Source: Sphingomonadaceae bacterium
GTDB taxonomy: Bacteria > Pseudomonadota > Alphaproteobacteria > Sphingomonadales > Sphingomonadaceae
Length of the DNA stretch: 64,000 bases
Assembly (NCBI GenBank): GCA_025056155.1
Contig: JANWWL010000005.1
Coordinates: 186,001-250,000, forward strand
Reading direction: 5' to 3'
This document shows positions 7,069 to 18,994 of this stretch, piece by piece. The number at the start of each line of letters is the position of its first letter. Positions within the stretch are counted from its first letter, which is position 1. A model generated the notes under the pieces. It did no database searches and was not told the DNA's origin. It saw nothing but the letters and a program-made list of their open reading frames with translations. Made by a program: the position numbers and the translations under genes.

Positions 7069-8166
7069 ATGGCGGACCGGGACGCGGAACTCCTCCCCGT
7101 AGCCGCGCCGCCGGCGCCCGTCCGGCCTGTCGTGGGGCGGGGTCGCGGCCCCGACCCGCAGCGCCTGGGGGTCGTTATCGTCAACTTCCGGCAGTCGGAC
7201 GCCACGGTCGAGTGCCTGGAATCCCTGCTGCGCATCCCCGGTGGCTTCCGGGTGGTGGTCGTGGACAACGGGTCGGCCGACGGCTCGGTCGAGCGGCTGA
7301 GGGCCTGGGCCCGGGGCGACCAGCCGCCGCCCGTCGTCTCGGGCCCGCTCGCCCGGCTGTCGCAACCGCCGGTGCCCAAGCCCTTGGCGCTGGCCGAGCC
7401 GGCCGCGGGCGAGGTGGGCCAAGGGCCCGTTCCCCGCCTGTCGCTCATCGCCTCGCCCAAGAACCTCGGCTTCGCCGGGGGGAACAACCTTGCAACCCGC
7501 TTCCTGCTGGGCGATCCCGCGGTCGATCGGATCTGGTATCTCAACAACGACACGGTGGTGGAGCCCACCGCCGTCGACCAGGTGCTGCGCACCTTCGAGA
7601 CCGATCCCCGCATCGGCATGGTGGGCACGCAAGTCCGCTTCTACCATGCGCCGCGGCGGCTCCAGGCCCTCAACGGCATGACGTTCCGGCGGCTCACGGG
7701 CGACGGCGTTCCGATCCACGGCGGCCGCTCGGTGAGTGAACCGTTCGACCCCAAGCAGGTGGTCGACCGCACGAGCTTCGTGCTGGGGGCCTCGCTGGCG
7801 GTCAGCCGCGCCTTTCTTCAAACCGTGGGTCTCATGTCCGAGCGCTACTTCCTCTACTATGAGGAGATGGACTGGGCCGCGCGCAACCGGGGCCGGTTTC
7901 GCATCGGCTTCGCCCGCGGGGCCATCGTCTATCACAAGCACGGGGGGTCGATCGGCTCCTCGTCGGTCAGAGGCGGCCGGTCGGCGCTCGCCGAACACTA
8001 CATGCTCAAGAGCCGCCTGCGTTACTACCTGGCCCACGACCCGCTACTGCTGCCGATCGTGTGGACCCGGGGCTGGCTGCAAACCGGCGTGCGCCTGGCC
8101 CGTGGCCAGCCGGCCAAGGCGGTCGCGATGCTGCGCGCCCTGTTCTTCAGGCCCTGGCGCGACTGA
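7069..8166 (+). CDS. Glycosyltransferase family 2 (rhamnosyltransferase-like)
   Basis: 365 residues. After a proline-rich N-terminal tail of about 30 residues the GT-A domain begins with LGVVIVNFRQSDATVECLES, then VVVDNGSADGSVE (nucleotide-binding Asp). The acceptor-side metal motif sits in YLNNDTVVEP, and the GASLAVSRAF and YYEEMDWAAR motifs follow in the order seen in dTDP-rhamnosyl transferases of polysaccharide synthesis. An insertion of about 40 residues rich in Pro and Ala lies between the first two motifs. ATG at 7069 follows a 66-base gap. The last 123 bases overlap the convergent SGNH gene. It is cytoplasmic or membrane-associated, and the sugar is unknown. Confidence 0.9.
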   Translation: MADRDAELLPVAAPPAPVRPVVGRGRGPDPQRLGVVIVNFRQSDATVECLESLLRIPGGFRVVVVDNGSADGSVERLRAWARGDQPPPVVSGPLARLSQPPVPKPLALAEPAAGEVGQGPVPRLSLIASPKNLGFAGGNNLATRFLLGDPAVDRIWYLNNDTVVEPTAVDQVLRTFETDPRIGMVGTQVRFYHAPRRLQALNGMTFRRLTGDGVPIHGGRSVSEPFDPKQVVDRTSFVLGASLAVSRAFLQTVGLMSERYFLYYEEMDWAARNRGRFRIGFARGAIVYHKHGGSIGSSSVRGGRSALAEHYMLKSRLRYYLAHDPLLLPIVWTRGWLQTGVRLARGQPAKAVAMLRALFFRPWRD

Positions 8167-8889
8167 CCGATCCATCCCCGGCCCCGAGGGACAGACGATC
8201 GGCCGCAGCGCCTCGTCCAGCCGGGGAACCAACAGGGTGGCCATCGCCTCGGGCGTGGGATGCGAGCCGTCGGGCACGGCCCGGGCCAAGGCCCCAGGGC
8301 TCAGCGCCTGCCACGGGGGAAGCGTGTCCACCAGCATCGCCCCCGTCTTGCGCGCAATCTCGCCATAGAGCGCTCGATAGGCCGGAAGCCCCGGCCGTTC
8401 CCACCGTTCCCGGCCGTGCACCACCCCCATCACGACGAGCACCGGGAGCGCACCGGCCGCGCGAGCGGCCTCCACCATTCCGGTCACCCGCCGCCGGCTC
8501 TCGCCCAGGGTGACCCAGCGGAGGAGTGCTGCGTCATTCACCGTGAACTCGATCAGCACCAGGTGGGGGGCCGGCGGCCGCGCCAGCCGGGCTGCGAGCG
8601 CCGGCTGGCCCCAGCGGCTGGATGCGCCGACGCGGGCGACCCGTTCCACCTGCACGGGGCCACCCCGGCAGGCCTGAAGCGCCCGCCCCAGCTGCTCGAC
8701 CCAATCGCCCCGGGCGGTAAGGCTGGTGCCTGCGGCCAGCAGGACGAGCGGCCGGTCGGCCGGCGGCAGAGGCGGCACCCACGCGGGTGGCCGGGAGCCG
8801 GGCGGAGGGGGATGGTGCAGCAGTCCCAGCCGCCCGGCCGCCAGGACGGCGAGGCCGGCGAGCGCCAGCCCCCCCACCGCCCCCCACAC
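8044..8889 (-). CDS. SGNH/GDSL-type hydrolase with N-terminal membrane anchor
   Basis: 281 residues from a GTG at 8889. The frame is open further upstream into the preceding gene, and a CTG that overlaps its stop is another possible start. A hydrophobic segment covers roughly residues 1-22 (signal anchor), then a proline-rich stretch. The SGNH blocks are recognisable: block I around AAGTSLTARGD (Ser nucleophile, GTS instead of GDS), block III IEFTVNDAAL (Asn) and block V DGSHPTPEA (Asp/His). The catalytic domain therefore lies outside the membrane. The last 40 or so residues overlap the GT2 gene on the other strand and look unlike an SGNH terminus, so the true end may be earlier. A role in removing or transferring acyl groups on surface sugars is inference. 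Confidence 0.75.
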   Translation of the reverse strand: MWGAVGGLALAGLAVLAAGRLGLLHHPPPPGSRPPAWVPPLPPADRPLVLLAAGTSLTARGDWVEQLGRALQACRGGPVQVERVARVGASSRWGQPALAARLARPPAPHLVLIEFTVNDAALLRWVTLGESRRRVTGMVEAARAAGALPVLVVMGVVHGRERWERPGLPAYRALYGEIARKTGAMLVDTLPPWQALSPGALARAVPDGSHPTPEAMATLLVPRLDEALRPIVCPSGPGMDRSVAPGPEEQGAQHRDRLGRLATGQAHAGLQPAPGPHDRQQ

Positions 8890-8900
8890 GGCGCGCCGGG

Positions 8901-10616
8901 TCAGTCCTCGACCTCGACCGGACGCCCGGGCGGCGGCAGCTTCACCCGTCGCTTCACGGCCCGGATCCGCGCCATGGTCACGCCGTCGCTCTTGCGCGCC
9001 AGCGAGGCCAGGTAGCGCACTTCCCGATCGTCCTCCGCCCAGTCGTGCAGGCGAAAGATCAGCGTGTCGGTGGGCTCGGCGTTGGCGAAATAGCAGATGT
9101 CGCGCTCCACCGTGCTGGTCTCGAAGGCGAAGGCGGGGCCTTTCAGCCGCGTGAGGCACAGCTCGGCGATGGCGGGATACGCCGCAAAATACAGGAGGCC
9201 CACGCCGTTGATGTCGTGGAAGGGCTGGATCTCGTAATCGAGCTCGGCCTGGGCGGGGGGAAGCGGGGTGGCCCGCAGCTGCCGATATTCCACGGCAAAT
9301 GGAGGAAGCTCGCCCAGGTCGCGGATGGCGCATTCGGGCGGGATCACCGGCTGGCCCTTGAGCAGCGAGGTGTTGGCGCCGGCCTCACCGAACCGCGCAA
9401 AGGTCGTCATGAGCCGTGCGGTCGCCACGCCGCGCACGCCCTCGATGCGTGCGTCGCCGAAGAACATCGCCGCTCCGAAGCGGCTCTCGTCGATCCGGAT
9501 CGCCAGCCGCTCGTTCTCCCGATAGTCGGTGAGCGGCACGTTCGACGTGAAGGCGACGCGCGTGAAGGTGGCGTACAGGCGATGGCCCGCCCCATCGGCG
9601 AGGCTTGCCGACTGGGTCTTGAGCTCGTGCATGAGGACGGCCCAGTGCAGGTCGCCCAGCTCGCGGAACAGCCAGCCTTCCGAAAGGCCCCGCATGGCCA
9701 TCTGGGGCAGGTTGATCCGGTAGTGCCGTTCGTTGGGCGGCAGGGCCGCCGGCCCATCGGGCGCATCGCCGCGTTGGGGGGGCAAAAGGCTGTAGCGCAC
9801 GCGCGGTTTGGCCATCGGCACGACGGTGGCGGCGGGCGGCGGTGCCGCCGGGCGTCGCTCCGCTGAGGGCTCGGGTTCGGCTGCGTATCGGTCCGCGGCC
9901 GGCTGGGCCAGGTCGGCCGGGCAGCGCAGCGACTGCCATCGGGCATCCGGAATCGCGCGGCCGAGCCGGGTTTCCAGGTCGGCGCGCAGGCTGATGAGGT
10001 CGAAGCTGTCGAGGCCGAGCTCGACGAACGGCCGGTCGAGGTCGGCATCCTCGAGCTCCGGCCGCCGCTCCCGCAACATGGCCAGGAGTTCGGCGCGCGA
10101 CAGATGCGCCGCGTCGGCGGGCGACGGCGGCGGCGGTTCGACCGCAGGGGCCGGGCGGCCCGCCGCTTCCTCCTTGGCGAGGAAGCGGGGATCCCCAATC
10201 CCCCAGCGGCCGGTCACCACGCCCGAACGCACGACGCGAGCAGGATTGCCCGACACGACGGAACGGGGGGGCACGTCCGACATGACGACGGCCCCCGCCC
10301 CCACCACCGAGTGATCCCCGATCCGCACCCCCGGCATGATGATGGCCCGCGCGCCGATGAAGCAGTGCGAGCCCACCCAGGTGTCGACATGCCGGTTCGA
10401 CTGCATGTCGTGGGTCAGGATGGCGGCGTCGAAGGTCACCGCCGTCCAGTCGCCGATGTGCACCCCCTTGGGATTGGTGCGGTCGAGCCGGGCCGAGCGC
10501 GACAGCTTCACCCCCCGGCCGATGTCCATGCCCCAGACGGTGCGGTACCACCAGCGCTGCAGCCCGCTCGAGACGTGGAAGCCGTGGCGGCGAAGCGTGG
10601 CAAGAAGCGTCGTCAT
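8901..10616 (-). CDS. Three-domain protein: left-handed beta-helix acyltransferase, acyl carrier domain, LnmK-like hotdog domain
   Basis: 571 residues from ATG at 10616. Domain 1 (about 30-135) is a hexapeptide-repeat acyltransferase: repeated I-G-x-x turns, the catalytic-type His in ILTHD (His69), and the GNPARVVR motif. Domain 2 (about 172-235) is an acyl carrier protein with the phosphopantetheine site [12 protein letters not shown], Ser204. A Pro/Ala linker (240-270) leads to domain 3 (about 290-560), which I recognise as the Pnap_2097/LnmK-type hotdog family from segments such as [26 protein letters not shown] and [13 protein letters not shown]. LnmK itself is an acyltransferase/decarboxylase that loads propionyl on a carrier from methylmalonyl-CoA. 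The fusion suggests acyl capture, carriage and transfer in one chain; the acceptor is unknown. An SGNH hydrolase follows 11 bases downstream. Confidence 0.85.
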
Positions 10617-10727: not shown

Positions 10728-11015
10728 ATGGCCGTGACTGCCGAAACCGTCCGGACCGTGGCCCGCCTCGCCCGCCTGCGGGTGAGCGACGACGAAATCC
10801 CCGCCCTGCAGGAGGAACTGACGCGGATCCTATCCTGGGTCGACCAGTTGCAGGCCGTCGACACCACGGGGGTCGAACCTATGACCCGCGTCATGCCCGT
10901 CACGCGCGCTTGGCGGGCGGACGAGGTGACCGACGGCGACTGTCGCGACGCCCTGCTCGCCAACGCACCCCAGGCCGTTCACGGCTTCTTCGCCGTGCCC
11001 AAGGTCATCGAATGA
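10728..11015 (+). CDS. gatC: Aspartyl/glutamyl-tRNA amidotransferase subunit C
   Basis: 95 residues, the standard GatC length. It stabilises the GatA-GatB complex that converts Glu-tRNA(Gln) and/or Asp-tRNA(Asn) to the amidated forms. Family hallmarks are [16 protein letters not shown] near the N-terminus, [22 protein letters not shown] in the middle and AFRADEV-like [10 protein letters not shown], ending near [17 protein letters not shown] chose ATG at 10728 rather than the in-frame ATG at 10716, because the family starts close to the VTAETV helix. TGA overlaps the gatA start as ATGA. Confidence 0.95.
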
Positions 11016-12511
11016 CCGCACTCACCGAGCTCACGCTCACCGCCATGCGGGCGGGTCTGGCGGCGCGGGAGTTCTCGGCCCGCGAACTTACAACCGCGCA
11101 TCTCGAGGCGGCGGAGGCCGCGCGGGCGCTCAACGCCTTCATCACCCTGACCCCGGATCACGCCCTGGCGGCGGCCGAGGCGGCTGATGCCGCGCTCGCG
11201 CGCGGTGCCGCCGGCCCCCTCGCGGGCATTCCCATCGGCCACAAGGACCTGTTTGCGACCGCCGGTATCCGCACCACGGCCGCCTCGCGGATGCTGGCCG
11301 ATTTCGTGCCGACCTACGAGTCCACCGTGACCGCGCGGCTGCTGGCCGCCGGCGCGGTCCCCATCGGCAAGCTCAACCTCGATGAATTCGCCATGGGCTC
11401 GTCCAACGAGTCGTCGGCCTTCGGGCCGGTGGTCTCGCCCTGGCGGGCGGGCAACTGCGACGAGGCGCTGGTACCGGGCGGCTCCTCGGGCGGATCGGCC
11501 GCGGCCGTGGCGGCCCGGTTGGTGGCGGCGGCCACCGGCACCGACACGGGCGGCTCGATCCGGCAGCCGGCCGCCTTCTGCGGCGTGGTGGGAATCAAGC
11601 CCACCTACGGGCGCTGCTCGCGCTTCGGCATCGTGGCCTTCGCCTCCTCGCTCGACCAGGCGGGCGTCCTGGCCCGCACCGTAGCGGACGCTGCGGTGGT
11701 GCTCGAAGCCATGGCCGGGTTCGATCCCCGGGATTCCACGTCGCTGCCCGAACCCGTGCCCCCCTGGTCGGCGCGGCTGTCGGCCGACCTTACGGGGCGG
11801 CGGGTGGGCATTCCCGTCGAATACCGGGCCGACGGCATGGACGAAGCGGTGGAGCGGCTGTGGGCCGAAGGTGCGCGCTGGCTTCAAGACGCAGGCGCCC
11901 AGGTGGTCGACGTCTCGCTGCCGCACACGGCCCAGGCGCTGCCCGCCTACTACGTCATCGCCCCGGCCGAGGCCTCTTCGAACCTCGCCCGGTACGATGG
12001 TGTCCGCTACGGCCTGAGGGTAGTGCCCGAAGGCGGCGGGCTCATGGAGATGTACGAGGCCACGCGTGCGGCCGGCTTCGGACCGGAAGTGCGCCGGCGC
12101 ATCCTGATCGGCACCTATGTGCTGTCGGCCGGCTACTACGACGCCTACTACGCCAAGGCCCAGAGGGTGCGTACGCTGATTGCACGCGATTTTGCCGAGG
12201 CCTTCCGGGTCTGCGACCTGCTGCTGGCCCCCACCGCGCCGACGGGGGCGTTTCCGCTCGGCGCCAAGTCGGCCGATCCCATCGCCATGTATCTCAACGA
12301 CGTGTTCACGGTGCCGGCCTCGCTCGCCGGGCTGCCGGCGATCTCCGTGCCGGCCGGGCTTGATGCGCGGGGGCTGCCGCTGGGGCTGCAGCTGATCGGC
12401 CGGCCGCTTGATGAGCAGGGGGTGCTGGATGCGGCCCTGGCCATCGAAACGCGCGCGGGCTTCTGCGCCTCCCCCGCGCGCTGGTGGGGGGATGACTCAG
12501 GCCCTTCTTGA
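11012..12511 (+). CDS. gatA: Glutamyl/aspartyl-tRNA amidotransferase subunit A
   Basis: 499 residues. GatA is the amidase that releases ammonia from glutamine for transamidation on tRNA. The Ser-cisSer-Lys triad of the amidase signature family is intact: Lys78 in GHKDLF, Ser158 in PGGSSGGS and Ser182 in TGGSIRQPA. The sequences [10 protein letters not shown] and [12 protein letters not shown] are typical of GatA rather than other amidases. It is translationally coupled to gatC. gatB is not adjacent: 5 kb of surface-polysaccharide genes lie between. The last 15 bases overlap the convergent flippase-glycosyltransferase gene. Confidence 0.97.
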
Positions 12512-15082
12512 GGCCACCGCAAGGAGGGCGGCCCGCAACCTCTGGCCCACCGCCTCCCAAGTGAATTCCTGCGCCCGCCGCCGGCCGGCCTCGCTCATGG
12601 CCTGCCGCGCCTCGGCGAGGCCCGGCAGGCGGGCGATCGCCTCGGCCCATACGTCGGCCGACACGCTGTCGATCACCATGCCTTCGATGCCGTCGCGGAC
12701 GAAGGCGCCCGCCCCCATGGGCGACACCAACCCCGGCACGCCACAAGCCGCGGCTTCATAAGTCACCTTCGGCATCCCCTCCTCGAGGGTGGGGAACACG
12801 AACCAGTCGGCCGATCGAAATAGGGCACCGACGTCGTCGACGAACCCCAGCCGAATGACGTCGGGACGGTCGAGCAAGTGGCCGAAATGTCGGGCGACCA
12901 AGGGATCGGTGTCGCCGGCGAGGACGAGCCGACCTTCGATCCCCGCCCGCGCCCAGGCTTCGAGCAAGATAGGCACTCCTTTGCGAACGTTGAGCGTTCC
13001 GCAGAACACGAGGGTGAGCCCAGGTGCCGGAGGCAACAGCCGCCGGGTGCCGGCCAGCCGGGCCGGTTCCCAGCCCCGGCAGGATTCGACCAGCTTCTCG
13101 CGCGGGATGCCGATTTCGAGCAGCGACTGCAGGACGCCTGGGCTCGGACAGAAGATGGCATCCGCCTGCGCCAGCTCCGCCTCCTCCTGGGCGACGGCCT
13201 CCTCGGTCACGCCGTCGAACGGGGGCAGGCCCAGACGCTCGTGCTCGGCGGCCAGCACGCGGCGGTGATAGGCTCGCGCACAGTTCGTCTTCTCGCGCAC
13301 CACGAGCGCGCCGGCCGACCGGATGTCGCGGGCGATCGTGGGCCCAAGGTCGCCGAACAGCCAGGTGATGGTGCGTTCCGGAGCTCGAGCGATGGCCGCC
13401 ATCAGCCGCCGCGTCGCCCGCTCCCGGAGCTCGGCAAGCATGACCGACCGCAGGATACGCTCGGCCGTCACGCCAAGTCCGGGCCCTCCGCTCACGACCG
13501 GAACTTCGATCGGAGGGCCCAACCAGCAGTTGGCGGGTGTAAACAGGGTGGTGGGGAGGTCGGGATGATGGACCGCCTGCGCCATCATGACGGCGGAATA
13601 GGAGGGGCCCTTCTGGCTCAAGGGCAGCCCCACGACCGTGAACAGCTGGAGCCCACCAGTCGGGGGCAGGCGCGCCGGGCGGCCGGTGCGATATCCGCGC
13701 TCGCCCGAATTCGGGGCCGAGTCCGCACCGTCGCCCAGTCGGGGCGCCCGCCCTGGCGAAGATGGATCGATGGACCCTGGCGAGGTTCGGGAAGCGGGTT
13801 CGGTTTCCGGTCGCCGCAAGTAGGCCTGCGCCAGCGCCAGCGAGGTCAAGTTTCGAAAGACGAGGGCAGCGGCGGAGGCGATCGCCGCTCCGGCGACCCC
13901 CAGCCCCGGAACCAGGGCTACGGCGAGCGCGATCAGGAGGAAGAGCCCACCTAAGGTCACCAGCAGTTGGGAGCGCTCGCGGCCCACCATGATCATCAGA
14001 CCGCCCACCGGCCCTGACACGACGTTCACGACCTGGCCCAGGGCGAGGATGACGAGGGCCGGCGCGGCCGCTCGCGCCTCGGAGCCGAACAGGATCCCCA
14101 GCAGCCATTCGGGCGCCAGGATGGCCACGAGCAGGACCGGCCCCGCCCCCAGGAGCATGAGGCGCCGGGTACGGTCGTAGCGGGTGCGCAGCTGGGCCCA
14201 TCCGGCGACCCGGAAATCGCCGGCGAGAAGGGGTGCGGAATAGTTCTCGCCGGTCGAGACGACGGTGGCGGGGATCATGGTGATCTGCAGGGCCATCCTG
14301 AGGGTGCCGGCCGCCTCCAGCGACCATTGGTGCGCGACCAGCGACAGCAGCAGCCATTCCCCGAAGGCGATCGCCAGCGACGCCGCCAGGACGAAGACGC
14401 CCTGCTTCCGGAGAGACCCGAGGCGGAAGGTCGTTGCCGTGGGCCACATGCGGACAAGCCTCGCCACGACGCCCAGGGACAGGCCGGCCGAGATTGCGAG
14501 GGCGACGAGGAGGAGACCCGCGACGACCGGTTTAGACACGGTCTCTCGGGCGGCCGTTATCGTGAGCAGCAGGACGAAGAGGATCGACGAGTGCAGACCC
14601 TCGAGGCCCTGGCCCAGGACCTGGCGGCCGGCCCCGCGAATGGCGGCGACTGCCATCCGGTTGAGCGCCATGAGCGGCACCGAAACCGCCGTCGCCAGCA
14701 GCACGGGTGCGGACAGTGCGGACAGGACGTGCGCCGGCCGCACGGCGGCCAGCAGCGCGAGTCCTCCCGCCAGCACGAGACCCGTCAGCCCGACCGCGGT
14801 GAGGGACCGAACGATGGCGCTGCGGGCCTCCCCTTGCGCTCCGATGCGCAGGTCACCCGCCACCTTGCGGACCAACGGCTGGTCGAGCCCGGCGGTGGCG
14901 ACCAGCCCCAAGACAAAGCCCGTCGACACGACGAGCGCGTAGGTGCCGACCACGGCCAGTCCCCCGGCGCGCGCCAGGATGAGGGTCACGCCAAAGGCTG
15001 CCGCAGCGTGCACCGCCTTGAGGGCATAGGCGGCCAGTTCGGGTGCCGTCTGGACGCGCACGGCAAGGGCCCTGGGGTTCAT
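12497..15082 (-). CDS. Oligosaccharide flippase fused to a GT4 glycosyltransferase
   Basis: 861 residues from ATG at 15082. About residues 1-430 form a polytopic flippase of the MOP/Wzx type with roughly a dozen hydrophobic helices (for example [20 protein letters not shown] and [17 protein letters not shown]). A Pro/Ser/Gly/Arg-rich linker of about 45 residues follows. Residues from about 476 are a GT-B glycosyltransferase with [19 protein letters not shown] and the GT4 motif [15 protein letters not shown] (E-x7-E) plus a DGIEGMVID loop. No ATG occurs near the linker, so the two activities appear to be one polypeptide. It would add a sugar and help export lipid-linked oligosaccharides at the inner membrane. 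The gene points against gatA and away from the sulfotransferase. Confidence 0.88.
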
Positions 15083-15202
15083 CGCCGACCGGTGACAACG
15101 CCGTCGGTGAGCGACCTGACGGCCATGAGGCCCTCGCCGACCGATCCGTTCCGCACCACAAGCCTTGCCATGACCTTCAGCCACGTGGCAACGCCGACGG
15201 CG

Positions 15203-15820
15203 ATGGCCAAGTATCTTTGCCTCGGCCTGCCCCGGTCGGGGACGTCGTCACTCCACCATGGGGTCCTGGCGCTTGGCCTTCGCTCGGTCCACCACATCGC
15301 CGATCCCGATACCCGTCGGGAGCTCGAGCGGGGTCGGTACCGCTTGTCCATCTTCGAGCGCACCGACCTCCTGATCGACGAGGTGGCGCCGGTCGTCTTC
15401 GTCCAAATCGCCGAGGCGATGCCGGAGTTGCGGTTCATCTACACCTTCCGGGACGAAGACTCTTGGCTGGCCTCGATGGCGAAGCTCGCCCATCTGCACG
15501 AAGTCCCCAGGACGGGAAGTTTCCGATACTATAGTCGACTCGCAATGTTTGGCGTGACGGTTTTTCACGAGAGTCGCTTGCGCCAGGTTTGGCGCGAGCA
15601 TGATGCGCGGGTGCGCGACTACTTCCGTGGCCCACGCGCCGAGCGGCTGCTCATCATGGACATCACGGGTGGCGACGGGTTCGACAAGCTCTGTCCTTTC
15701 CTTGGCCTGCCGGAACCAGGCCTCCCCTTCCCGCACGTAAACCGCGACGGTTCGATCCGCCGCAGCCCGGCCTCGCTCGGGCGGCGGCTGCGCCGCCGCT
15801 ACCTGGAACTGCTCGGCTAA
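15203..15820 (+). CDS. Sulfotransferase family protein
   Basis: 205 residues from ATG at 15203; in-frame ATGs at 15170 and 15125 would extend it and no ribosome-binding site decides between them. The N-terminus CLGLPRSGTSSLH is the PAPS 5'-phosphosulfate loop of the sulfotransferase fold. The segment ELRFIYTFRDEDSWLASM corresponds to the strand-helix holding the second PAPS-binding motif in bacterial Sulfotransfer_4 proteins. The product would transfer sulfate from PAPS to a hydroxyl, here most plausibly of a surface glycan given the flanking flippases. Codon and base use is visibly less G+C-rich than the neighbours (for example 15520-15620), which hints at acquisition by transfer. Confidence 0.8.
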   Translation: MAKYLCLGLPRSGTSSLHHGVLALGLRSVHHIADPDTRRELERGRYRLSIFERTDLLIDEVAPVVFVQIAEAMPELRFIYTFRDEDSWLASMAKLAHLHEVPRTGSFRYYSRLAMFGVTVFHESRLRQVWREHDARVRDYFRGPRAERLLIMDITGGDGFDKLCPFLGLPEPGLPFPHVNRDGSIRRSPASLGRRLRRRYLELLG

Positions 15821-15841
15821 TCTTCCGCGAACGCCGACGTT

Positions 15842-17395
15842 TCAGGAATTGATCCATCTGCCAAGGCCGCGGGAGAGGGCGCCAAGGTGCTGGGCGACGA
15901 TCGTTTCCGCCGAGTTTTCGGGGCGACCCGCCCAATGCCAGGCCACCGCCAGCACCGCGCCGTAGACCAGCAGGCCGAGCGCGACCCGGCCTACCACATG
16001 AAGCGCCACCGTCGCGGTCGGCAGGCGCTGCCATTCCGGATCCGGGAGCCCGAGAAGGACGGCGGCCATCAGGCCGACGGCAAGGAAGCTGCGCCGGCCC
16101 GCCACCAGCCCCTCCCACCACCGCCCCCCCGTCAACCGGGCGGCAAGCCAAAGGTTGTAGAAGGGAAAGAGCAGGCCCGAGGTCAGCGCGGCACCGGCCA
16201 GAAGGCCCGGAAATCCGCCTGCGAAGAATCCCCCCGCCACCATCGCCGCCCGCAGCGGTGCGAACACCATCGAGCGGGCGGCCAACGCCCGCGTTCGGTC
16301 GAGCGCCATGGCGACCCCTTCGGTGCCCGCCGACAGGGCCTGCAGTGCGAGCACGGGGGCCAGCACCTGCGTTACGGTGGCGGCCAACGCCCAGCCGGGC
16401 CCCAACAGGAGCAGCACGAGCGGCTGGGCCAGCACCCCCAACCCCACCCCGAGGGGCAAGGAAACGGCCAACGCCACGCCCTGGGCCTTCAAGTAGGCAG
16501 AACGCAACCGGGCCGGGTCATCCTTCAGCATCGCAAATGCCGAATAGAGCGCTCGTGAAACGGCCAGCACCATGTCGTTGCCGGCGGCACGGTTGATCTG
16601 GCCCGACACATGGTAAGCCCCCAGCGTGGCGGTATCGAGGACCTTGGGGATGAAGACGTAATCGAAACGATTTCCGAGGTATTGCAGGGCCCGATAGACC
16701 ACGAGCCACGACCCGAAACCGAAGATGGCCCGGAACTGGGCCAGCGACCACCCCGGCCGACCGGGAACCCGCCACCAGGTGAGCGCCGACCCCACCACCG
16801 CCGACACGATGGTCGAGGCCACGAGCGCCCAATAGGTGCGCAAGTGGAGCGCCAGCGCGATCGCCACCACGCTGCCCGCGACAGCCGCCACCGCCCTTCG
16901 CCGGGTCTCGAGCCGGAAGTCGAGGTCGCGCGCGTAGAGCACGAAATAGGGATTGGTCAGATTGACGGCGAACGCCGCGGCGGTGAGCGCGTAGAGCACG
17001 CCCTCGAGTCGGGAATCCCCCATCCAGCCAGCGAGCGGCCGGGCGATGACGGCCAGGACCGCCGCTGAGGCGACCCCTCGTAGCACGTTGATCGTGAAGG
17101 CGGTGTCGAAGTGCGCTTTCTTAAGCTCGGTTTCCTTGATGAGGGCGGCCGAGGTCTGGACGTTCGACAGAATGTCGATGATGCCCATCACGGCCGTGGC
17201 CAGCGCCACCAGGCCGAAATCGGCCGGCACCAGGATCCGGGCCAGGACCAGCGTGGTGAGGAACCCCACGCCCTTGAGGCCCATGGCCAGAAGCCACAGC
17301 AGGCTGGCCCCGGCGGCCGTGCGCCGTCCGAGCGCGCCGCCCGGGCGCCTGGCCGACCTGTCCGCACGCGTCCCCGAAGGCGGGCTGTCGTTCAT
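15842..17395 (-). CDS. Polysaccharide/oligosaccharide flippase (Wzx-like, MOP superfamily)
   Basis: 517 residues from ATG at 17395, which follows a short soluble head of about 30 residues. The remainder is a multi-spanning membrane protein. [27 protein letters not shown] is the classic first-helix region of Wzx/RfbX-type lipopolysaccharide O-antigen flippases, and [28 protein letters not shown] is the typical central loop. Family members move undecaprenyl-linked oligosaccharide units across the inner membrane. It is the second flippase in a 5-kb segment, so the region may export two glycans or one may be accessory. It ends 22 bases from the convergent sulfotransferase stop and diverges from gatB. 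Confidence 0.88.
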
Positions 17396-17491
17396 GAGGC
17401 TCCAGCACCGGGCACCCCGCCCGGCAGGAGGGCCCGCAACCCGGCCCGGGATGCCTTGCCAGTGCCCGCAACCTCCCGCAAGGGCACGGCC

Positions 17492-18994
17492 ATGGGATCG
17501 GAACCCTTCCGGATCGAGGGCGAGACGGGCCCGTTCGAGGTGGTCGTGGGGCTCGAGGTGCACGCCCAGATCGTCTCGCGTTCCAAGCTGTTCTCGGGCG
17601 CGGCCACCGCCTTCGGCGCCGAGCCCAACACGCAGGTGAGCCTGGTCGACGCCGCGCTGCCGGGGATGCTGCCCGTCCTCAACGGGGAATGCGTGCGCCA
17701 GGCCGTGCGCACGGGGCTTGCGCTCGGCTGTCGGATCAACCGCGTCTCGCGCTTCGACCGCAAGAACTATTTCTACCCCGATCTGCCCGCTGGCTACCAG
17801 ATCAGCCAGTACAAGGAACCCATCGTGGGCGAAGGTGTCGTCGAGGTCGAGCTGGACGACGGCACGATACGGCGCGTCGGCATCGAGCGGATTCACCTGG
17901 AACAGGACGCCGGCAAGTCGATCCACGATCTGCACCCGAGCTTCAGCCTGGTCGACCTCAACCGGGCGGGCGTGGCGCTGATGGAGATCGTGTCGCGGCC
18001 CGACCTCCGGTCGCCGGCCGAGGCCGGCGCCTACGTGGCCACGCTGCGGCAGATCCTGCGTGCCATCGGCGCCTGCGATGGCAACATGCAGGAAGGCTCG
18101 CTGAGGGCCGACATCAACGTCTCGGTCCGCCGGCCCGGCACCCCCCTGGGCACGCGCTGCGAGATCAAGAACGTGAACTCGATCCGGTTCATCCAGCAGG
18201 CGGTGGCCTGCGAGGCCGCACGACAGGTGGCGGTGATCGAGGCGGGAGGGGCGGTCCAACAGGAAACGCGGCTGTTCGATCCCGAGCGCGGGGAGACCCG
18301 GCCCCTGCGTTCGAAGGAGGACGCCCACGACTATCGCTACTTTCCCGACCCCGACCTCCTGCCGCTGGAACTGTCCGAGGCCTTCATCGAGGAGTGCCGG
18401 GCGAGCCTGCCCGAGCTGCCGGCGGCCCGCCGACGCCGCTACCAGGAGGAGCTGGGGCTCTCTCCCTACCTCGCGCGGGTGCTGACTGCCGACGTGGCCG
18501 AATCACGCTGGTTCGAAGCGCTGCTCGCCGCCACGGCGACACGGCTCGGCCAACCCCCCTGCGCGGTCGCCGAGCGGGCGGCCAACTGGATGACGGGCGA
18601 CCTGTTCGCGGCGCTCAAGCGCCTTGACCGCGACATCGAGACGAGCCCCGTGACCCCCGAGCAGGGGGCGGAGCTGCTGGCGCTGGCGGCCGATGGCACG
18701 CTGTCCGGGCCGCTTCAGAAGCAGGTGTTCGAGATCATGCTCGAGACGGGCGAGAACCCGGGCGTGATCGCCGCGACCCGGGGGCTGCGCCAGGTCTCGG
18801 ATGCCGGCGCCATCGAGGCGGCCGTGGCTCGGGTCCTGGCCGCCGAGGCCGACAAGGTGGCCGAATATCGGGCCGGCAAGGAGAAGCTGTTCGGCTTCTT
18901 CGTAGGCCAGGTGATGAAGGCGACCGGCGGCAAGGCCAACCCGCAGCTCGTCAACGCGGCCCTGCGCCGGGCGCTTGCGGCCGAGACCCGCTAG
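17492..18994 (+). CDS. gatB: Aspartyl/glutamyl-tRNA amidotransferase subunit B
   Basis: 500 residues. GatB binds the mischarged tRNA, activates the side-chain carboxylate with ATP and transfers ammonia from GatA. Diagnostic segments are [11 protein letters not shown] near the start, [42 protein letters not shown] and [16 protein letters not shown]. The C-terminal YqeY-like tail with [17 protein letters not shown] is complete. ATG at 17492 was chosen because it precedes the conserved core by 16 residues; an upstream in-frame start would add unconserved sequence. The stop shares CTAG (18991-18994) with convergent serB. Confidence 0.96.

Follow-up and report, generated by a model that had tools for sequence, protein, structure and literature searches.

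The fusion protein and its domains

The subject of this study is P0001, a gene in a 64,000-nucleotide stretch of DNA (the window) from a Sphingomonadaceae bacterium (genome G000; assembly GCA_025056155.1, contig JANWWL010000005.1, positions 186,001 to 250,000), which encodes a left-handed beta-helix (LbH) acyltransferase, an acyl carrier protein (ACP) and a hotdog domain of the type of LnmK, the bifunctional acyltransferase/decarboxylase of the leinamycin pathway, in a single chain. An earlier sequence-only reading of the window had reported a 571-residue open reading frame (ORF) at 8901-10616 with these three domains in one polypeptide. Both points are borne out, and we add the strand, which that reading left unstated. 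The features of the protein, in window coordinates, are the following.

8901..10616, minus strand: P0001, LbH acyltransferase-ACP-LnmK-type hotdog fusion, 571 amino acids (uninterrupted ORF and domain matches)
10224..10562, minus strand: LbH acyltransferase domain, residues ~19-131 (PF00132; NF058585 match at 19-131)
10412-10410, minus strand: codon of His69, candidate catalytic residue of the LbH domain (HD motif common to stand-alone relatives)
9903..10055, minus strand: ACP (PP-binding) domain, residues 188-238 (PF00550; Ser204 codon at 10007-10005)
8961..9719, minus strand: LnmK-type acyltransferase/decarboxylase double-hotdog domain, residues 300-552 (TIGR04098, LnmK-chain profile, invariant columns)
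9575-9573 and 9209-9207, minus strand: codons of Tyr348 and Asn470 within the LnmK-type domain (invariant alignment columns)

Each domain exceeds the cut-off of its family: Hexapep PF00132 scores 38.9 bits at residues 78-111 (gathering cut-off 27), PF00550 scores 30.4 bits at residues 188-238 (gathering cut-off 20.8), and LnmK_bifunc TIGR04098 scores 144.7 bits with E 3.1e-42 at residues 300-552 (curated cut-off 100). The attachment site is intact as previously read, with Ser204 inside LGLDSFDL and DSFD starting at residue 203. The related model TIGR04099 (Pnap_2097) reaches 121.7 bits, just below its cut-off of 125, and the Mad malonyl-ACP decarboxylase model PF09500 gives no match to P0001 at E up to 1. 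The best NCBIfam model for the LbH domain is NF058585 (78.9 bits, far below its cut-off of 300). His69, the putative catalytic residue of this domain, lies in an HD motif that is kept in the aligned stand-alone LbH relatives. Single-sequence structure predictions of the hotdog domain and of the whole protein had mean pLDDT values of 29.8 and 33.7, and the double-hotdog assignment is a sequence match.

Recurrence of the fusion

TIGR04098 is rare at E 1e-10: it matched 3 of 385 genomes in a class sample, 6 of 397 in a family sample, 7 of 398 in a phylum sample and 4 of 396 in an order sample, where the samples overlap and include G000 and the order survey yielded no additional loci. Among the six family matches, five have the three-domain order: P0001 and the loci L018, L020, L021 and L022, whose proteins are 40.8-41.9% identical to P0001 over 537-609 aligned positions (tblastn; gene calls in unannotated stretches were made within this analysis). 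We conclude that the fusion is real and beyond chance, recurring in four further genomes. The sixth match, L019, encodes an ACP-LnmK protein; its cluster also holds an SGNH hydrolase gene (PF13472), genes for capsule synthesis, Wzy_C and WecG, and two LbH genes of their own. A looser relative, L010, is an LbH-LnmK protein of Roseobacter litoralis plasmid pRLO149_63, located among glycosyltransferase, sulfotransferase and SGNH genes, the last of a different Pfam family (PF19040); according to an excerpt of PMC3141670, this plasmid has an rfb cluster and is important in the biosynthesis of the cell envelope. The TIGR04099 cut-off is passed by L018, L010 and L019 and not by L020, L022 or the cut L021 sequence. 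A search of the genome contigs with the P0001 protein gave one weak, LbH-only locus.

The sparse distribution (6 of 397 family genomes including the source, one of them with a stop) might be taken as the mark of a decaying, accidental fusion without any joint function. We consider this hardly credible, given that the fusion stands in five genomes, that its catalytic residues are conserved, and that its domains are under selection. For L020 versus L022, dN/dS is 0.30 for the LbH, 0.43 for the ACP and 0.40 for the LnmK-type domain, and 1.36 and 1.12 for the linkers, which shows, for this one pair, with a simple method and domain borders set in this analysis, purifying selection on all three domains and free linkers. 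At even confidence, we prefer to read P0001 as a carrier-dependent acyltransferase that loads itself and acts on a cell-surface glycan.

The LnmK-type domain

To place the LnmK-type domain of P0001, we aligned 14 such domains from all settings, and found Tyr348 and Asn470 invariant and Asp468 nearly so. A profile of LnmK-type domains, run against the PDB at E up to 0.1, matched only LnmK chains (best E 5.8e-24); in this alignment Tyr348 corresponds to LnmK Tyr62, which we take to be the required active-site tyrosine, and Asn470 to the Asn of the LnmK DVNG motif (the DxNG loop). P0001 thus keeps the LnmK-type catalytic residues, which supports the sequence-only reading. According to part of PMC8666670, the Asn used by LnmK (printed LmnK) sits on a loop resembling that of MadB.

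In a tree of 21 LnmK-type domains, from which L021 was omitted because of its stop, the six rows from LbH-type and glycan loci form one group with the stand-alone L035 (support 99/99), with the nit1 rows on the opposite side; the polyketide synthase (PKS) rows L025 and L030, together with L033, are placed closer to the glycan group, by a branch that carries no star (94/93). The plasmid settings come from 59 records with an LnmK-type domain, nine of whose neighbourhoods, hand-picked, were examined. Among these nine, L011, L013, L026, L028 and L029 are nit1 clusters, and L025, L027 and L030 lie beside PKS or fatty-acyl genes. At L026 7980-10888, in Caballeronia, the LnmK-type gene of the nit1 cluster overlaps the start of a methylmalonyl-CoA mutase gene, which hints at what members of this branch act on. 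A low-GC genome of another class has, at L036 2210-4845, a stand-alone LnmK-type gene that belongs to the glycan clade and adjoins a GNAT-like gene (by eye).

These data bear on whether the domain decarboxylates at all. The hotdog might instead move a ready-made acyl group (e.g. acetyl or hydroxybutyryl) from CoA to the ACP, or edit wrong acyl groups, while the LbH domain still acylates a glycan. Consistent with this, members of the family occur in very different settings (nit1, PKS/fatty-acyl and glycan loci), the glycan clade is distant from LnmK (88 bits for the match of the A1 profile to LnmK), and in the tree an end branch of 4.92 leads to L033, which, judged by eye, is the locus most like that of LnmK. 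On the other hand, the positions of LnmK Tyr62 and of the DxNG Asn are invariant in all 14 rows, and the Mad hotdogs, which have a similar Asn loop, do decarboxylate (PMC8666670, in part). We therefore regard a non-decarboxylating hotdog as somewhat unlikely, and continue with a decarboxylating loader.

The substrate of the loader

LnmK acts on methylmalonyl-CoA, and the sequence-only reading had named methylmalonyl- or other CoA esters as candidate substrates of P0001. Methylmalonyl-CoA mutase gave no match in G000 (99.99% complete) and was found in all eight other genomes searched, with one match each in the congeners G001, G002 and G004. A carboxyltransferase, which we infer to be PccB, is likewise absent from G000 and found in G001, G002, G004, G671 and G483 (E 1e-197 to 1e-199). 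Since the mutase and PccB-like genes are ~690 kb apart on one contig of G002, one assembly gap is an unlikely cause of their absence from G000. Because both genes are missing in G000, malonyl-CoA or malonyl-ACP is the likelier donor in this host, and would give an acetyl group. The earlier suggestion is thus weakened, and methylmalonyl-CoA is no longer our default substrate.

The corresponding alternative, in which (2R)-methylmalonyl-CoA is decarboxylated to propionyl-ACP and the glycan is propionylated, draws on the known activity of LnmK, on the nit1-type relative that overlaps the mutase start in Caballeronia, and on the mutase found in the L019 host and in those of the four other fusions; against the absence of both genes from G000, when G001, G002 and G004 have both, we consider it unlikely. 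For the malonyl version of the loader there is an informative parallel in GlmU, an LbH enzyme. In E. coli, a hotdog malonyl-ACP decarboxylase makes acetyl-ACP, and GlmU prefers acetyl-ACP (KM 20 vs 400 uM), as stated in an excerpt of PMC8666670.

The LbH domain, its ACP-linked relatives and module exchange

The relatives of the LbH domain, which supply the strongest of the new evidence, suggest that it works with a carrier. G524, the host of the L020 fusion, also has at L051 10731-12869 a family 2 glycosyltransferase (GT2) gene followed by genes for a stand-alone LbH, a free ACP and an AMP-binding ligase. The L051 LbH is 60% identical to that of P0001 over 139 amino acids, while the fusion of G524 itself carries a different LbH type. 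The same LbH/ACP/ligase trio, followed by an SDR gene, is present on Haematobacter and Qingshengfaniella plasmids, and Pfam confirmed the LbH, ACP and adenylating ligase of all three trios (L051, L053 and L054). The plasmid survey covered all 12 records matching at E 1e-20, one place each, although the Haematobacter record holds a second LbH match; ten of the stretches were annotated, and L012 and L063 are cut by the record end. These LbH acyltransferases of Alphaproteobacteria are 44.5-56.3% identical to the N-terminal domain of P0001, and glycan genes surround most of the ten annotated ones. The trio occurs in two of the ten, the other eight having no directly adjacent ACP, and four (L055, L059, L061 and L062) have an SGNH gene within the stretch. 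At L057 687-6474 (pSC52_6, SC52), genes for an ACP, a HAD-IIIC phosphatase-family protein and an MBOAT protein lie upstream of the LbH gene, perhaps another loading variant.

In a tree of 16 LbH rows (L059, near-identical to L055, and the LbHs of L010, L020 and L022 were omitted), the ACP-linked LbHs (P0001, L018, L021, L051, L053 and L054) are six of six on one side of a branch with support 89/91, which was recovered in 96% of 200 bootstrap trees, and none of 500 label shuffles scored as low.

The domains of the fusion also have different nearest relatives. The LnmK domain of P0001 is nearest to those of L020 and L022 (59 and 56% identity, pairwise), whereas its LbH is nearest to those of L021 and L018 (59 and 54% identity, scores 440 and 446) and far from those of L020 and L022 (40 and 46% identity, scores 133 and 154), so that the LnmK domain nearest to that of P0001 is joined to a different LbH type in G524 and G733. 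The best NCBIfam LbH models, always below cut-off, differ accordingly: NF058585 for P0001, L018 and L021, TIGR03308 for L020 and L022, and a WbbJ model for L010. These differing relatives and models suggest that a single loading module has been combined with LbH domains of three types. Together, the trios and the LbH swap fit an ACP-dependent acyltransferase with exchangeable loaders, of which the LnmK-type domain would be one, and they lend backing to the earlier idea that loading, carriage and transfer occur in cis.

Genes around P0001

The neighbours of P0001 in the window are the following.

7069..8166, plus strand: GT2 glycosyltransferase (PF00535), convergent with the SGNH gene, their 3' ends overlapping; syntenic in congeners G002 and G004
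8044..8889, minus strand: SGNH/GDSL hydrolase with a hydrophobic N terminus (PF13472, 50 bits; Ser of GTS, ND and DGSHP blocks by eye)
12497..15082, minus strand: flippase joined to a family 4 glycosyltransferase (GT4) (GT4 part, PF13692; flippase part, likeness to congeners)
15185..15820, plus strand: sulfotransferase, start not settled (PF17784, 101 bits)
15842..17389, minus strand: second flippase, Polysacc_synt_3, start not settled (PF13440, 203.8 bits)

The SGNH gene reported downstream of P0001 is there, with a GTG start 11 bases past the P0001 stop; an alternative CTG start overlapping that stop is possible. The glycosyltransferase, flippase and sulfotransferase genes described earlier are likewise recovered, by Pfam in all cases except the first flippase: the N-terminal part of 12497..15082 has no Pfam flippase match, and its label comes from the resemblance of residues 1-412 or 183-412 to L050/L049 and from reading by eye. 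Across P0001 from the SGNH gene, among gatC, gatA and gatB, come the flippase-GT4, the sulfotransferase and the second flippase. Taken with the SGNH and GT2 genes, they suggest a surface glycan.

In the congeners G002 and G004, the gene order is MaoC, acyl-CoA dehydrogenases, enoyl-CoA hydratase, two more dehydrogenases, GT2, gatC, gatA, flippase and gatB, and both the SGNH gene and the fusion are absent from the corresponding region (tblastn at 1e-8). The pair was therefore gained between GT2 and gatC in this genome, or lost in the congeners. At E 0.001, TIGR04098 has no match in G001, G003 or G004, and in G002 a weak match only (E 3.1e-4, below the cut-off). At 12497-15082, the window has flippase-like and GT4 parts in one frame, where the congeners have only a 426-amino-acid flippase-like ORF. 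From 10728 to 18994, glycan genes are interleaved with gatC, gatA and gatB, and the same gaps in two congeners hold fewer, resembling a hot spot.

For the other four fusions (L018, L020, L021 and L022), we scanned 14 flanking ORFs with Pfam. L018 has a GT2 gene, 52.6% identical to that of the window and convergent with the fusion, then NAD kinase and a radical SAM gene. L020 is flanked by GNAT, GST and HisS, L022 by GcpE, GNAT and HisS, and L021 by MotA, a beta-helix gene and a TonB receptor. At L021 3613-6589, the stop-containing fusion adjoins this right-handed beta-helix gene, which is seemingly split over two frames; likewise, a right-handed beta-helix gene adjoins the LbH-LnmK gene of L010. 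None of the 14 ORFs matches SGNH, so that the window is the only one of the five three-domain loci with an adjacent SGNH gene. The neighbourhood survey called for by the sequence-only reading thus recovers the three-domain order in four other genomes and not the SGNH neighbour, which we reject as a constant partner of the fusion. The GT2 is also rejected as a specific partner, its family being found in nine of ten genomes searched.

The same neighbourhoods raise the alternative that the fusion feeds acyl-ACP into another pathway (a small polyketide, a lipid or a fatty-acyl starter), the nearby glycan genes being incidental. LnmK-type domains do occur beside PKS and fatty-acyl genes, the flanking ORFs scanned at L020, L021 and L022 include no glycan gene, the insertion site adjoins gatC with acyl-CoA dehydrogenase genes upstream, and the best LbH model, far below its cut-off, is a lipid acetyltransferase. 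However, glycan genes abound at the window locus, L019 and L010, and surround the stand-alone plasmid LbH relatives in most of the ten annotated stretches; moreover, no ketosynthase was seen when the ORF list of window 1-24000 was read by eye. No nit1 genes and no adenylating ligase were seen in the same list. We judge such another pathway quite improbable, and retain a surface glycan as the proposed target of P0001.

Proposed mechanism and its weighing

In the mechanism that we propose, Ser204 of the ACP domain would be phosphopantetheinylated, and the LnmK-type domain would load an acyl group onto this arm by decarboxylating a malonyl-type thioester, as its family and the residues Tyr348 and Asn470 suggest; in this host, malonyl to acetyl would be likelier than methylmalonyl to propionyl. 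The LbH domain would then, in the cytoplasm, transfer the acyl group from this arm to a sugar or glycan intermediate, at one of its hydroxyl or amino groups. The SGNH hydrolase may, as a guess, trim or move the acyl group outside the membrane. Carrier dependence appears to be the better supported part of this scheme; decarboxylation is suggested by the family and the two residues, and the acetyl product by the missing genes.

Several observations weigh against this scheme. Among the fusions, the L021 copy has one in-frame stop, and PP-binding is not matched by Pfam at E 0.01 in L020 and L022, where the ACP is assigned from the alignment and a DSFG motif; the L010 copy has no ACP, and its LbH seemingly lacks the His motif (by reading). 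On the side of the LbH domain, NF058585, matched far below its cut-off, describes a heptaprenylglyceryl phosphate acetyltransferase, no sugar enzyme; the support of 89/91 for the ACP-linked branch is below the usual star, being good and not decisive; and the LbH of L057, whose ACP is ~5 kb away and which was labelled not linked, falls outside the ACP-linked group. The hosts of the other four fusions have methylmalonyl-CoA mutase. As for the setting, the window GT2 family is present with or without the fusion, and at the other fusions glycan genes are limited to the GT2 of L018. With such glycan-poor flanks, the glycan setting is carried by the window, L018, L019, L010 and the LbH relatives. 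The polysaccharide-acylation setting proposed in the sequence-only reading therefore stands for the window and not for three of the four other fusions, and its interpretation as a whole is partly supported.

More broadly, we suggest tentatively, at less than even confidence, that some surface-glycan acylation in Alphaproteobacteria runs on a dedicated carrier with exchangeable loaders, and that in the fused form malonyl-CoA rather than acetyl-CoA pays for each acyl group, through LnmK-type decarboxylation on the protein's own arm. If true, polyketide-type acyl loading would be tied to bacterial glycan decoration, the acyl groups of surface glycans need not derive from acetyl-CoA, and carrier-dependent LbH acylation could be tested directly within one protein. 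To our knowledge, such acylation has so far been known mainly from the lipid A enzymes, GlmU and the O1 tetronate system. In open-licence PMC text we found no description of this three-domain architecture, or of an acyl group made, carried and transferred on one protein for glycans.

Comparison with known systems

The ACP on which LnmK acts is a separate protein of a polyketide pathway. P0001 resembles LnmK (PDB 4hzn-4hzp and 6x7l-6x7p) in matching TIGR04098 and in keeping Tyr62 and DxNG, and differs in that its LnmK-type domain follows an LbH domain and an ACP within one chain and belongs to a separate clade with glycan-type loci. The Pnap_2097 family (TIGR04099) of the nit1 clusters has a homologous domain, with P0001 just below the cut-off and on a separate branch of the tree. 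Of the plasmid LbH acyltransferases of Alphaproteobacteria that have no adjacent ACP, those included in the LbH tree lie outside the ACP-linked group of P0001.

The proposal for P0001 also resembles MadA/MadB and GlmU of E. coli, in which a hotdog decarboxylase makes the acetyl-ACP that GlmU prefers, and MadA is itself an acyltransferase-hotdog fusion (both from part of PMC8666670). Unlike P0001, MadA fuses a GNAT rather than an LbH domain, has no ACP domain, and has a hotdog of PF09500, which is unmatched in P0001.

The tetronate genes rfbKLMNO (wbeK-O) of Vibrio cholerae O1, where RfbO is an LbH-type acyltransferase, offer the nearest known logic for the trios L051, L053 and L054, which look alike. 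In excerpts of PMC12208996 and PMC3441752, RfbL activates the acid, putatively onto CoA or the carrier RfbK. The trios are thus a natural comparison for P0001: where rfbKLMNO loads by an adenylating ligase encoded with its partners as separate genes, P0001 has an LnmK-type putative loader in the same chain.
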